The notes beneath the pieces were generated by a model that searched no databases, was not told the origin of the DNA, and was given only the letters and a program-made list of their open reading frames with translations. Shown piece after piece: positions 33,761-38,020 of a stretch of 64,000 nucleotides of DNA (its first letter is position 1; every line of letters begins with the position of its first letter). The position numbers and the translations under genes were made by a program. Source of the stretch: Rhizobium sp. BK196 (GTDB lineage: Bacteria > Pseudomonadota > Alphaproteobacteria > Rhizobiales > Rhizobiaceae); assembly GCF_014193255.1 (NCBI RefSeq), contig NZ_JACHZB010000003.1, forward strand, positions 186,001 through 250,000, read 5' to 3'.

Positions 33761-36700
33761 TCAGACGAGTTCGACGTCGACGACACCAGGAGCGGCCCGC
33801 AAGGCGGCGGCGATCTCCGGCGTGATGCGGTATTTGTCCTGCAGCACGACTTCAACCTCGCGCTTGCCCTCCTCCTTGATCACGATGAAGGAGACCAAGC
33901 CATCGCCCTTGGCGTTCAGGTGCGCGGCAACGGCACGCAGCGGGCCGGAGTCGCGCACATAGACACGCAGCGCCTTCTGCATCTGCAGCGATTTTTCCTC
34001 CAGCGACTGGATGGTCTGCAGACGCAGGCTGACGCCTTCCGGTCGCTCTTCGCCGATCGCGGTGATAACGAAGGATTTTCCGGGCTCCAGTATGTCACGA
34101 TACTGGTTCAGCATTTCGGAGAAGAGCACGGCTTCGTACTGGCCGGAGGAATCCGAGAAGACGATGATGCCCATCTTGTTACCGGTGCGTGTCTTGCGCT
34201 CCTGCTTCGAAATGACGGTGCCCGCCAGTCGCCCGTTCGCAGCACCCTGCTTCACCGCCGTCGAGAAATCCGCGAAAGTCTGCACGCGCATCTTCTGCAG
34301 GATGTTGTTGTAGCTGTCGAGCGGATGGGCGGTCAGGTAGAAGCCCAACACCTGGAATTCCTTGAGCAGCCGCTCGGAGGCAAGCCAGGGCGAGAACGGC
34401 GGCAGGGCGATCTTTTCCGGGCCAGAGGAAAGCGCTCCGCCGAAAATATCCGACTGGCCGCTGAGCTTGTTTTCCTGGGCGCGCTGCGCATAGCCGAGCA
34501 CGCGGTCGAGACCTGCCGAAAGCTGGGCGCGATCCAGGTTGAAGCAATCGAAGGCCCCGGCATAGATCAGGCTTTCCAGCACGCGGCGGTTCACCTGGCG
34601 CGGATCGATGCGCAGGCAGAAATCCTCAATGCTGGCAAAGGGCTTATCGCCGCGCATTTCGACGATGTGGTCAACCGCGGATTCGCCAACGCCCTTGAGA
34701 GCTGCAAGCGCATAATAGATGCGGTTATCGCCGGTCTCGAAATGCCGGAACGAGGTCTGGACGGAAGGCGCAATGACCTCGATACCGAGGCGCTTAGCAT
34801 CCTGGCGGAAGTCGTTGACCTTTTCGGTGTTCGACATGTCGAGCGTCATCGAAGCGGCCAGGAACTCGACCGGATAATGCGCCTTCATATAGGCCGTCTG
34901 GTAGGAGACGATGGCGTAGGCGGCCGCGTGCGACTTGTTGAAGCCGTAGTTTGCGAACTTCGCGAGCAGTTCAAAGATATTGTCGGCCTGCGGCTTCGAC
35001 ACGCCGTTCTTGACCGCACCGACGACGAAACGTTCGCGCTGCTGGTCCATTTCGGCCTTGATCTTCTTGCCCATGGCGCGGCGCAGAAGATCGGCTTCGC
35101 CAAGCGAGTAGCCCGACAGGACCTGGGCGATCTGCATCACCTGTTCCTGGTAGACGATAACGCCCTGCGTTTCCTTGAGCAGATGATCGATCATCGGGTG
35201 GATCGATTCGAGTTCCTCGTCGCCATGCTTGCGGGCGTTGTAGGTCGGGATGTTTTCCATCGGACCCGGACGATAAAGCGCGACCAGCGCGATAATGTCT
35301 TCGATGCAGTCCGGCTTCATGCCGATCAGCGCCTTGCGCATGCCCGCACTTTCCACCTGAAACACGCCGACCGTTTCACCGCGCGACAGCATCTCATAGG
35401 TCTTCTTGTCGTCGAGCGGGATCTTGGCGAGATCCACCTCGATGCCGCGCTTCTTGCAGAAATCGACGGCGACCTTGAGCACAGTCAGCGTCTTCAGGCC
35501 GAGGAAGTCGAACTTCACGAGACCGGCCTGTTCAACCCACTTCATGTTGAACTGAGTGACCGGCATGTCGGAACGCGGATCGCGATACATCGGCACGAGC
35601 TTCGACAGCGGGCGGTCGCCGATCACGATACCGGCGGCGTGAGTCGAAGCGTGGCGGTAGAGGCCTTCGATCTTCTGGGCGATATCCAGAAGGCGGGCGA
35701 CGACCGGCTCCTTGGCCGCCTCTTCCTGGAGCTTCGGCTCTTCCTCGATCGCCTTGGAAAGCGGCGTCGGGTTTGCCGGGTTATTCGGCACCAGTTTGCA
35801 GATCTTGTCGACCTGACCGTAGGGCATTTCCAGGACGCGGCCGACGTCGCGCAGTGCGGCGCGCGCCTGGAGCGAACCGAAAGTAATGATCTGCGCCACC
35901 TGCTCGCGCCCATATTTACGCTGCACGTAACGGATCACCTCTTCACGGCGGTCCTGGCAGAAGTCGATATCGAAGTCCGGCATCGAGACGCGTTCCGGAT
36001 TGAGGAAGCGTTCGAAGAGCAGCGAGAAACGCAGCGGATCGACGTCAGTGATGGTCAATGCATAGGCGACCAGCGAACCCGCACCCGAGCCGCGGCCAGG
36101 ACCGACGGGAATGTCATTCTGCTTGGCCCACTTGATGAAGTCCGCAACGATCAGGAAGTAGCCGGGGAACTTCATGCGCTCGATGACGCTGAGCTCGAAT
36201 TCCAGCCGCTCGCGGTAATCCTTCTCCTCGTAACCCGCCGACATGCCGAGCGTGGCCAAACGCATATCGAGCCCCTCCTGTGCCTGGCGGCGGAGTTCCA
36301 GCGCCTCGGCGCGTTCGGCCTCTTCAGGATCGTCCGTGGCGCCAGTGAAGCGCGGTAGGATCGGCTTGCGGGTCTTCAGAATGAAGGAGCAGCGTCGGGC
36401 GATCTCGACAGTATTTTCCAACGCCTCCGGGAGATCGGCGAAGAGCTTTTCCATCTCCGCACGGCTCTTCAGATAGTGATCGGGCGACAGGCGGAAACGG
36501 CTGTCGTCGGACACGATGGCGTTGTGGGCGACCGCCATCAGTGCGTCGTGAGCGTCATAATCGTCACGCGTCGGGAAGAAGGCTTCGTTGGTCGCGACCA
36601 GCGGCAGGTCGTGCTTGTAGGCAAGGCCGACGATCTTCTGTTCGTGCCGCTTGTCGTAAGTGCCGTGCCGCTGTAACTCGACATAAAGCCGGTCCCCGAA

Positions 36701-37246
36701 GATGCGCTTCAGCGTCAGGAGCCGGGTCTCCGCATGCGCGGCATGACCGTCCTTGAGCGGCATGTCGATCGGCCCGGTCGAGGCACCCGTCAACGCTATC
36801 AGGCCTTCCGTGCCGATCTCATCCAGCCACGAGGCGCGGATGTGAATTGTCGAGTTGCCCTCGCCGCCGAGATAGGCGCGGCTGACAAGATCGACCAGCC
36901 GCTCATAGCCTGCGTCGGTCGCGGACAGAAGTACGATGGAAGGCAGCTTGACCAGCGCCTGCTGACCTCCCCGCTTTTCGGTTTCGAGGCCGTCTTCCAT
37001 ATCGATCGATACCTGGCAGCCGATGATTGGCTGGAGCCCGTCATCCATCGCTTTCTGGGAAAACTCCAGGGCGACGAAGAGATTGTTGGTATCGGTGATG
37101 GCAATGGCTGGCTGATTGTCGCTCGCTGCCTTGTAGAGGATCTTTTTGAGAGGCAATGCGCCTTCAAGCAGCGAATAGGCGGAATGAACCCTCAGATGCA
37201 CGAAGCCTGGCTTTCCGCCGATCGCACCCTGTTCCGCATCCGCCAT
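33761..37246 (-). CDS. dnaE: DNA polymerase III subunit alpha
   Basis: This 1161-residue protein is the replicative polymerase (DnaE1 type by length; the mutagenic DnaE2 type is shorter). The PHP domain opens it (FVHLRVHSAYSLLEGALPL). Polymerase motifs include VGPGRGSGAGSLVAYAL and SMPDFDIDFCQDRREEVI, with the catalytic aspartates in the latter. An OB-fold (about residues 985-1060) follows near the C-terminus. The start at ATG 37246 has GGAAGGG upstream; an ATG at 37270 lacks one. It is transcribed leftward, as are lolC/E, lolD and proS, but DUF5680 and an SOS peptide gene separate it from them. Confidence 0.96.
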   Translation of the reverse strand: MADAEQGAIGGKPGFVHLRVHSAYSLLEGALPLKKILYKAASDNQPAIAITDTNNLFVALEFSQKAMDDGLQPIIGCQVSIDMEDGLETEKRGGQQALVKLPSIVLLSATDAGYERLVDLVSRAYLGGEGNSTIHIRASWLDEIGTEGLIALTGASTGPIDMPLKDGHAAHAETRLLTLKRIFGDRLYVELQRHGTYDKRHEQKIVGLAYKHDLPLVATNEAFFPTRDDYDAHDALMAVAHNAIVSDDSRFRLSPDHYLKSRAEMEKLFADLPEALENTVEIARRCSFILKTRKPILPRFTGATDDPEEAERAEALELRRQAQEGLDMRLATLGMSAGYEEKDYRERLEFELSVIERMKFPGYFLIVADFIKWAKQNDIPVGPGRGSGAGSLVAYALTITDVDPLRFSLLFERFLNPERVSMPDFDIDFCQDRREEVIRYVQRKYGREQVAQIITFGSLQARAALRDVGRVLEMPYGQVDKICKLVPNNPANPTPLSKAIEEEPKLQEEAAKEPVVARLLDIAQKIEGLYRHASTHAAGIVIGDRPLSKLVPMYRDPRSDMPVTQFNMKWVEQAGLVKFDFLGLKTLTVLKVAVDFCKKRGIEVDLAKIPLDDKKTYEMLSRGETVGVFQVESAGMRKALIGMKPDCIEDIIALVALYRPGPMENIPTYNARKHGDEELESIHPMIDHLLKETQGVIVYQEQVMQIAQVLSGYSLGEADLLRRAMGKKIKAEMDQQRERFVVGAVKNGVSKPQADNIFELLAKFANYGFNKSHAAAYAIVSYQTAYMKAHYPVEFLAASMTLDMSNTEKVNDFRQDAKRLGIEVIAPSVQTSFRHFETGDNRIYYALAALKGVGESAVDHIVEMRGDKPFASIEDFCLRIDPRQVNRRVLESLIYAGAFDCFNLDRAQLSAGLDRVLGYAQRAQENKLSGQSDIFGGALSSGPEKIALPPFSPWLASERLLKEFQVLGFYLTAHPLDSYNNILQKMRVQTFADFSTAVKQGAANGRLAGTVISKQERKTRTGNKMGIIVFSDSSGQYEAVLFSEMLNQYRDILEPGKSFVITAIGEERPEGVSLRLQTIQSLEEKSLQMQKALRVYVRDSGPLRAVAAHLNAKGDGLVSFIVIKEEGKREVEVVLQDKYRITPEIAAALRAAPGVVDVELV

Positions 37247-37312: not shown

Positions 37313-37354
37313 AAAAAGTCCTGCTTCGGGACCGCATGGCTGCCATGCGATCCC
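37313..37354 (-). terminator. terminator-like hairpins after the SOS peptide gene
   Basis: Just after the 28-codon gene, on the minus strand, an 11-of-12-bp stem (37328-37354) can form. Overlapping it is a shorter stem, GTCC/GGAC with a 7-base loop, directly followed by TTTTT (37317-37313). The two are mutually exclusive, so this could be a terminator or an attenuator before dnaE. Confidence 0.55.
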
Positions 37355-37362
37355 CTGAATTC

Positions 37363-37449
37363 TTACATTGCCATCACGATCAGCGAGAAGCTGGCAACGA
37401 ACATTGCGATGGAGGTGAATGCTGCGATATCACGGATCATGTCAGTCAT
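37363..37449 (-). CDS. 28-residue SOS-controlled single-helix membrane peptide
   Basis: ATG 37449 is preceded by an excellent ribosome binding site (AAAGGAGAGCCAG). It opens a 28-codon frame that starts MTDMIRDIAAF and ends LIVMAM, with stop TAA 37365-37363. Residues 8-28 form one continuous hydrophobic stretch, enough for one membrane helix. A -35 box and a perfect LexA box lie upstream, and a terminator-like hairpin follows. Short SOS-induced membrane peptides are known elsewhere: Caulobacter SidA blocks division through FtsW/FtsN, and E. coli TisB depolarises the membrane. I see no sequence reason to call this an orthologue of either. Expression and function are inference. Confidence 0.7.
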   Translation of the reverse strand: MTDMIRDIAAFTSIAMFVASFSLIVMAM

Positions 37450-37481
37450 CTGGCTCTCCTTTGCTCTTATGTTTTTAGTTT

Positions 37482-37505
37482 GTTCCATGTATGTTCTGTT
37501 GTCAA
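37482..37505 (-). promoter_or_regulatory. LexA box and -35 element of the SOS peptide promoter
   Basis: The direct repeat GTTC-CATGTAT-GTTC (37482-37496; GAAC-N7-GAAC on the minus strand) is a perfect alpha-proteobacterial LexA operator. On the minus strand a consensus -35 TTGACA (37505-37500) directly precedes it, so the box lies in the promoter spacer where LexA would block polymerase. The -10 is less clear (AAACTA at 18-base spacing). The divergent DUF5680 gene, starting 62 bases away, could share this control. Confidence 0.75.
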
Positions 37506-37558: not shown

Positions 37559-38020
37559 ATGGACGTTCTGGAACTCAACAGCTTCATTGTCGAAGCCAAA
37601 TCGCAGACATATGTCGCCGGCGCCAAGTCGCAGCCGTCTTATCGGATCGGTGCCCACGATATCGGCTACAAGCGTGGCATCTGGCGGTATCTCGACAGCT
37701 ATTTCGGCGGTACGGATTTTGCCGGTCAGGAAGTCGTGTGGCTGGAGGAAAAGCCGGTCTGGGCGATGAATTATTTCGGGCGGATCATCGAGCCCGATAT
37801 CATCGACGGAACTGTCGCCGGCGCGATCATTAGCGCCGCGCTGTCACAGCTCTACAAGCAGGGCCGCTTCCTTGGCGGCATGGTCTTCGATCATTCGCTG
37901 GGGCGCTATGTCGATGCGAGCGAAGGCGACTGCACGCATTTCCGTGGCCACGAATTCATTCTCGTAGGTGGTCAAAAGGCCTATGAGCTCGATTATCGCG
38001 GCGGGCTGATTATCCCCTGA
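37559..38020 (+). CDS. DUF5680 domain-containing protein
   Basis: This 153-residue protein begins MDVLELNSFIVEAKSQTYV and contains GIWRYLDSYFGGTDFAGQEVVW split by short loops and FILVGGQKAYELDYRGG. The pattern is that of DUF5680, a small cytoplasmic alpha/beta domain sometimes fused to helix-turn-helix regulators. Here it stands alone. Its function is unknown. It is divergent from the SOS peptide gene and converges on lolD, whose stop lies 4 bases away. Confidence 0.8.
   Translation: MDVLELNSFIVEAKSQTYVAGAKSQPSYRIGAHDIGYKRGIWRYLDSYFGGTDFAGQEVVWLEEKPVWAMNYFGRIIEPDIIDGTVAGAIISAALSQLYKQGRFLGGMVFDHSLGRYVDASEGDCTHFRGHEFILVGGQKAYELDYRGGLIIP

Follow-up and report, generated by a model that had tools for sequence, protein, structure and literature searches.

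The window, that is, the whole 64,000-nucleotide stretch of Rhizobium sp. BK196 DNA that was analyzed, carries dnaE1 on its minus strand (33761..37246; TIGR00594, 1201 bits). This gene encodes the alpha subunit of the main replicative polymerase III; its start codon, ATG 37246, is our choice, and the source genome contains two weaker dnaE homologs at other places. A divergent DUF5680 gene occupies 37559..38020 on the plus strand (PF18931, E 1.5e-25). Between these two genes, a sidA-like coding sequence of 28 codons and a stop lies on the minus strand at 37363..37449, beginning at ATG 37449, ending with TAA at 37365-37363 and encoding MTDMIRDIAAFTSIAMFVASFSLIVMAM. The first-pass annotation had described this frame as a peptide whose residues 8–28 form one hydrophobic helix, and direct reading bears this out: the stretch contains no charged residue, its best 17-residue Kyte-Doolittle mean is 2.11, and the charged residues of the N-terminus are D3, R6, and D7. 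An alternative in-frame start, ATG 37488, would yield 41 residues and falls within the LexA box. Since 13 of the 19 relatives that were printed in gene orientation have no room for 41 residues in their entire open frame, the 28-residue start is favored. Based on the comparisons below, we regard the frame as a real, conserved gene, brought to light here although Pfam and NCBIfam searches with the 28-residue peptide gave no match; a phage search with this single peptide also returned nothing.

Upstream of the gene and on the same strand, the consensus −35 element TTGACA (37500..37505), a perfect LexA box within the promoter spacer (37482..37496), and a ribosome-binding site ahead of ATG 37449, all claimed in the first-pass annotation, are indeed present. 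The box, GAACATACATGGAAC, reads GAAC-N7-GAAC, equal to GTTC-N7-GTTC on the plus strand, and the Shine-Dalgarno sequence is AAAGGAG (37456..37462); all three elements have counterparts in relatives. The putative −10 element CAAACT (minus strand, 37477..37482), read by eye at 17-nt spacing, is poor, and a promoter scanner called no promoter for the 28-residue gene. Moreover, a third LexA-type half-site, AAAC (minus strand, 37471..37474), lies 11 bp further on, so that three GAAC-type half-sites at 11-bp steps span window positions 37471-37496, and the AAC of the third is invariant across the 12 promoters aligned. This spacing and invariance suggest that LexA may bind cooperatively at the promoter. 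A second, overlapping perfect box occurs in 17 of the 62 promoters that have a perfect box.

The bare box pattern is not improbable. GTTC-N7-GTTC occurs three times in the window against 1.77 expected, and 85 + 74 times in the genome against 77 + 62 for the reversed control pattern; the view that a match is significant by itself was therefore rejected, and the proof rests on conservation. The other two perfect matches in the window (28617 and 56454) lie inside long ORFs and are thus probably not regulatory. The source genome has one lexA match, and because a box with the same pattern, GAACACATATGGAAC, stands 45 nt before the likely lexA start codon, the motif fits this organism.

Downstream, the terminator-like hairpins proposed at first reading were recovered in part. 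A 12-bp hairpin (minus strand, 37328..37354; −22.5 kcal/mol, z −4.96) follows the stop codon of the peptide, with no U-tract directly after it, and a weaker 5-pair stem (37333-37317) followed by a T-run was called by the scanner. The two overlap within window positions 37317-37354 and, since they use common bases, could form alternative structures. As judged by eye, the 12-bp stem recurs in two loci of the same genus (L002 and L003). The remaining 13 printed loci have different sequences at this position, some of which also fold strongly (raw folding energies of −30.9 kcal/mol for L015 and −24.7 kcal/mol for L011 over 63 nt). The hairpins are at most a putative terminator of the 28-residue gene.

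To follow the gene through the family, we compared the coordinates of peptide matches in 151 genomes with those of dnaE, for which 150 genomes gave a match. With the single sequence as query, 77 genomes matched at E ≤ 1, and the matches lay just upstream of dnaE in 42/42 cases at E ≤ 1e-3 and in 53/54 at E ≤ 0.01. In 63 genomes altogether, the peptide precedes the dnaE match by 141–855 bp and shares its strand. The 30 best dnaE-linked loci preserve peptide length as well as promoter layout, and the LexA box is perfect in 27 and one mismatch off in the other three. Among promoters having a perfect box, an SD-like motif is present in all 27 dnaE-linked and all 35 dnaE-distant ones, and TTGA[CA] lies no more than 12 nt ahead of the box in 22/27 and 25/35, respectively (control 13-mers, 1.3%). 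A broader profile (A4), built from 36 homologs and blind to the promoter, found the peptide in 140 of the 151 genomes at E ≤ 0.02. Across 14 disjoint pairs, pN was 0.12 and pS 0.48 (pooled dN/dS 0.17, a ratio of distances), with substitutions distributed 75:22:149 over the codon positions of the true frame, whereas the wrong frames (pS 0.21/pN 0.21 and pS 0.06/pN 0.27) showed no comparable silent excess. Because the excess appears in the true frame alone, the substitution pattern indicates that the protein is under purifying selection. Collectively, frame and LexA box are kept in relatives, as the first-pass annotation had expected of a genuine gene.

The profile search also revealed copies away from dnaE. 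Among the 150 profile matches listed, 89 genomes have one adjoining dnaE and 48 have one elsewhere only. The count of adjoining matches takes in one that is doubtful, at a distance of 1456 bp (G085, E 1e-4), and omits three genomes whose weak matches lay outside those listed. A further match elsewhere is present in 8 of the 89, and one of the 48 (G074) itself gave no dnaE match. In the first 15 dnaE-distant loci read, a perfect box lies within 140 bp in 11; of 46 further distant matches, 40 were read, and the 100 bp upstream hold a perfect box in 35, a one-mismatch box in two, and no box in three. The box sits mostly at −48 or −50, and none of 351 equal-sized control windows taken downstream within the same loci contains a perfect one. 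At the genome level, a perfect box accompanies a copy that was read in 45 of the 48 elsewhere-only genomes. The neighbors of seven distant copies are diverse: three of the copies stand beside gamma-glutamyltranspeptidase, and the other four beside phytochelatin synthase, lipoyl ligase, an ABC transporter, and carbamoyl-phosphate synthase, respectively. Judged from these sequences, the conserved unit is the LexA box with the peptide, not the peptide with dnaE.

We also read the dnaE region in 40 genomes among those without a single-sequence match there. A profile-supported peptide stands at dnaE in nine and none was seen in 31; many genomes without a peptide at dnaE carry one elsewhere according to the profile search. 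The nine divergent dnaE-linked copies have a perfect box within 120 bp in six cases. The box of L248 has one mismatch, and that of L239 is perfect but farther up, 94 bp before the ATG. For L259 (G048, MSDILQDMAALVSIGSFLVASAFWLGAM), no box with up to one mismatch was found within 120 bp, and this copy may have lost its SOS control or come under an altered form of it. In addition, six copies (L283, L284, L285, L302, L307, and L323) form a second SidA-like group starting with MRD, and four of the genomes with such copies also have a dnaE-linked one. The MRD-type copies show no perfect LexA box in the 140 or 100 bp scanned upstream; by analogy with DidA, they are possibly division inhibitors under other control.

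Eleven of the 151 family genomes gave no profile match. The peptide is missing in 7/8 genomes of at most 2.0 Mb versus 4/143 larger ones, and in 4/6 genomes without a lexA match versus 7/145 with one (Fisher p 2e-4), where two of the four belong to one genus and some genomes are drafts. This is weak evidence that peptide loss is tied to lexA loss, and genome size explains more of the loss; one genome (G031) keeps box and peptide with no lexA match. In six other genomes (G039, G110, G114, G135, G144, and G150), the lexA match begins only at profile position 57–78, and the DNA-binding half may have diverged or the gene may be broken.

The first-pass annotation had named SidA of Caulobacter as an analogue, and the relation proved to go further. 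The family Caulobacteraceae was recognized by a CtrA identity of 88% (best of 45 genomes) and by names; 38 of its 40 genomes gave a dnaE match, and 30 loci were read. An ORF of about 29 residues with a LexA box lies upstream of dnaE in 28 of these, the box being perfect in 16 and one mismatch off in 12. Scanning a named genome collection with the Caulobacteraceae peptides gave 143 confirmed loci, of which 80 were kept. In 79 of the 80, dnaE lies within 700 bp, the remaining one running off its contig, and a box within 110 bp is perfect in 55, has one mismatch in 24, and is absent in one. Three of the named loci are C. vibrioides records: the box is perfect in L191 and L213, and L174 (strain T5M6) has one-mismatch boxes alone. 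In T5M6, the gene order is nucleoside hydrolase, 29-residue ORF, dnaE. The literature places a nucleoside hydrolase at CCNA_02005 (PMC3667746), sidA at CCNA_02004 (PMC10769358), and dnaE at CC1926 (PMC1839093), where the correspondence of CCNA to CC tags was deduced from gene content and order, and gives SidA a length of 29 residues (PMC4211646).

The rhizobial profile was compared by hhalign with that of the Caulobacteraceae peptides, which were taken to be SidA from their position and length. The alignment spans 21 columns with no gap (E 1e-6 for one comparison, probability 91%), although profile E-values are optimistic for so short a peptide and a chance match in genome G495 reaches 1.8e-5. 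Divergent family members, such as L249 (MLAFAKDCLSLAAVSGFVYAFSLLICVV) and MQEIAKDVLSLVAISGFLFAFSLIIHAV, bridge the rhizobial and Caulobacter forms. The common core reads R/K-D/E, two variable residues, A/S, F/L, one variable residue, S/A, V/I, two variable residues, F, and V/I. From this sequence relationship and the common position, we conclude that the 28-residue peptide is related to SidA and not only analogous to it. The open-access literature searched contained no description of a rhizobial SidA, a search that could miss published statements on SidA conservation.

Relatives in the wider class were sought in 387 genomes. With rhizobial peptides only, the first profile search matched 181 genomes at a lax E ≤ 5, and outside the family nothing was judged above noise but G455, dnaE-linked by coordinates (E 0.083). 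As reading anchored at dnaE revealed, class relatives are too diverged for the rhizobial-only profile. The broader profile matched nine genomes at E ≤ 0.005, two of them of the source organism's own genus and five with coordinates that link them to dnaE: three from the Caulobacter family, itself represented in the profile (G202, G383, and G450), together with G424 (family f11) and G455 (family f3). Sequence support beyond the family and Caulobacteraceae thus amounts to one genome each in f3 and f11. The G442 match falls in a 583-residue frame, and the match G495:C37:135874-135930 (L040) was rejected as chance, its frame having neither a start codon nor a LexA box. In other alphaproteobacterial families, dnaE is preceded by a perfect box with a small hydrophobic ORF in 10 of the 68 loci read (L061–L128), from families f2, f3, f11, f36, f49, f69, and f105; in f2, f36, f49, f69, and f105, homology is by place, box, and size only.

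We lean slightly toward the view that SidA is an ancient SOS division checkpoint of the Alphaproteobacteria, near-universal in larger-genome Rhizobiaceae, mostly lost on genome reduction and sometimes duplicated under other control. If true, a SidA-type peptide would fill the place of the missing SOS division brake in rhizobia and might play a part when cells elongate during symbiosis. Already known in itself, the SidA kind is shown by the rhizobial gene to be older and wider than the Caulobacter model; what is new is its extension to rhizobia, with patterns of relocation and loss.

A trace of the gene also exists in Sinorhizobium meliloti. The record CP090106.1 of strain Ak57 (L335) carries the 28-residue MADFVRDLAAFASMSLFIVSISVIALGL upstream of dnaE, behind two overlapping perfect boxes; the ORF is absent from the gene table shown, which is itself incomplete. 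This record is titled S. meliloti pSymB and is 3.7 Mb long; with dnaE, rpmG, and a gene for proline--tRNA ligase among its contents, it looks like a misnamed chromosome. In S. meliloti, Ribo-seq detected a translated novel sORF25 in the dnaE1 5′-UTR, for which a uORF role was suggested (PMC10117765). As judged by its place, sORF25 is probably the same gene as the Ak57 ORF. The earlier statement that no such peptide had been described in rhizobia at dnaE must therefore be narrowed: sORF25 is listed there, while the words SOS, LexA, and SidA do not occur in the main text of that paper (PMC10117765).

SidA halts division of Caulobacter cells for as long as their DNA is damaged. In Caulobacter, LexA cleavage releases sidA, and SidA keeps FtsW/FtsI/FtsN inactive (PMC4211646). 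We consider it likely that the rhizobial peptide is a SidA ortholog that is released by LexA cleavage and blocks septation via the same three proteins. This reading builds on the gene itself, its purifying selection, its LexA box, and its homology and synteny with sidA, as read from the sequences; damage induction, membrane insertion, the target, and division arrest in rhizobia would follow by analogy. LexA bound to the box between the promoter elements would repress the gene. Upon DNA damage, activated RecA would bring about LexA cleavage and free the gene, and an mRNA with a short leader of about 20–30 nt would yield the 28-residue peptide. Its helix, residues 8–28, would insert into the inner membrane with the charged N-terminus probably in the cytoplasm. 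The peptide would then keep the FtsW/FtsI/FtsN septum-synthesis complex inactive, and the cell would filament until repair ends.

Several other explanations were weighed. A chance ORF beside a chance box would fit the lack of enrichment of the bare motif in window and genome, yet the conserved frame and box, the dN/dS of 0.17, and the dnaE linkage leave this explanation a practically negligible probability. The constant position upstream of dnaE in many genomes, together with the uORF role suggested for sORF25 (PMC10117765), would suit a peptide that serves as a leader or uORF and adjusts dnaE1 expression. However, 48 of the 151 genomes have a listed profile match away from dnaE only, a perfect LexA box accompanies a copy that was read in 45 of these, and the neighbors of the distant copies vary. 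Because box and peptide are kept together away from dnaE, a dnaE leader is very improbable.

The first-pass annotation had left the choice between a division inhibitor and a membrane-active toxin. TisB is a small single-helix SOS-controlled peptide, and the similar size, topology, and control would also accord with a TisB/DinQ-like toxin that depolarizes the membrane and leads to persistence. In contrast to tisB, which has a long structured leader, the LexA box here ends 32 nt before the ATG, which would imply a short leader with no room for one of the tisB type. Moreover, the homology is with SidA. A toxin is thus quite improbable, whereas the sequence relationship and common position with SidA favor division inhibition. 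We also regard it as unlikely that the SidA-descended SOS peptide has come to act on another envelope target, for example in Rhizobiales polar growth, in place of FtsW/I/N. Rhizobiales grow at the pole, and the FVWMVC stretch typical of Caulobacter peptides is replaced in the rhizobial one; with this difference in the helix's second half, the contacts with the target may be other ones. However, the N-terminal half and its spacing are retained without a gap, and intermediates join the rhizobial and Caulobacter forms.

As a SidA ortholog, the peptide would give rhizobia a concrete, testable candidate for the stop of division after damage, and their SOS division block becomes directly testable. 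Furthermore, natural homologs form a series along which the helix changes in its second half, and this series can be of use in mapping the FtsW/FtsN contact.

Comparison with known systems places the peptide as follows. YneA of Bacillus and SosA of Staphylococcus are SOS-induced division inhibitors, as is proposed for the rhizobial peptide, but they belong to another phylum and are larger than 28 residues; they were set apart by description. TisB and DinQ of E. coli share small size and the predicted SOS induction and membrane location, and represent a toxin class with antisense-RNA and leader control. DidA of Caulobacter is a small single-helix FtsW/I/N inhibitor, as the rhizobial peptide would be; in contrast, it has 71 residues and is controlled by DriD rather than LexA (PMC4211646). 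The S. meliloti sORF25 shares the site in the dnaE1 5′-UTR, where Ak57 carries a homolog of the 28-residue peptide, and differs in the uORF role that its authors suggest (PMC10117765). Finally, SidA (CCNA_02004) resembles the rhizobial peptide in being a single-helix peptide of about 29 residues with a LexA box and a site upstream of dnaE, and both contain the core R[DE]xxA[FL]x[SA][VI]xxF. The rhizobial peptide differs in its length of 28 residues, in having FVAS in place of the FVWM of most Caulobacter peptides in the second half of the helix, and in that 48 of the 151 family genomes have a listed match away from dnaE only.
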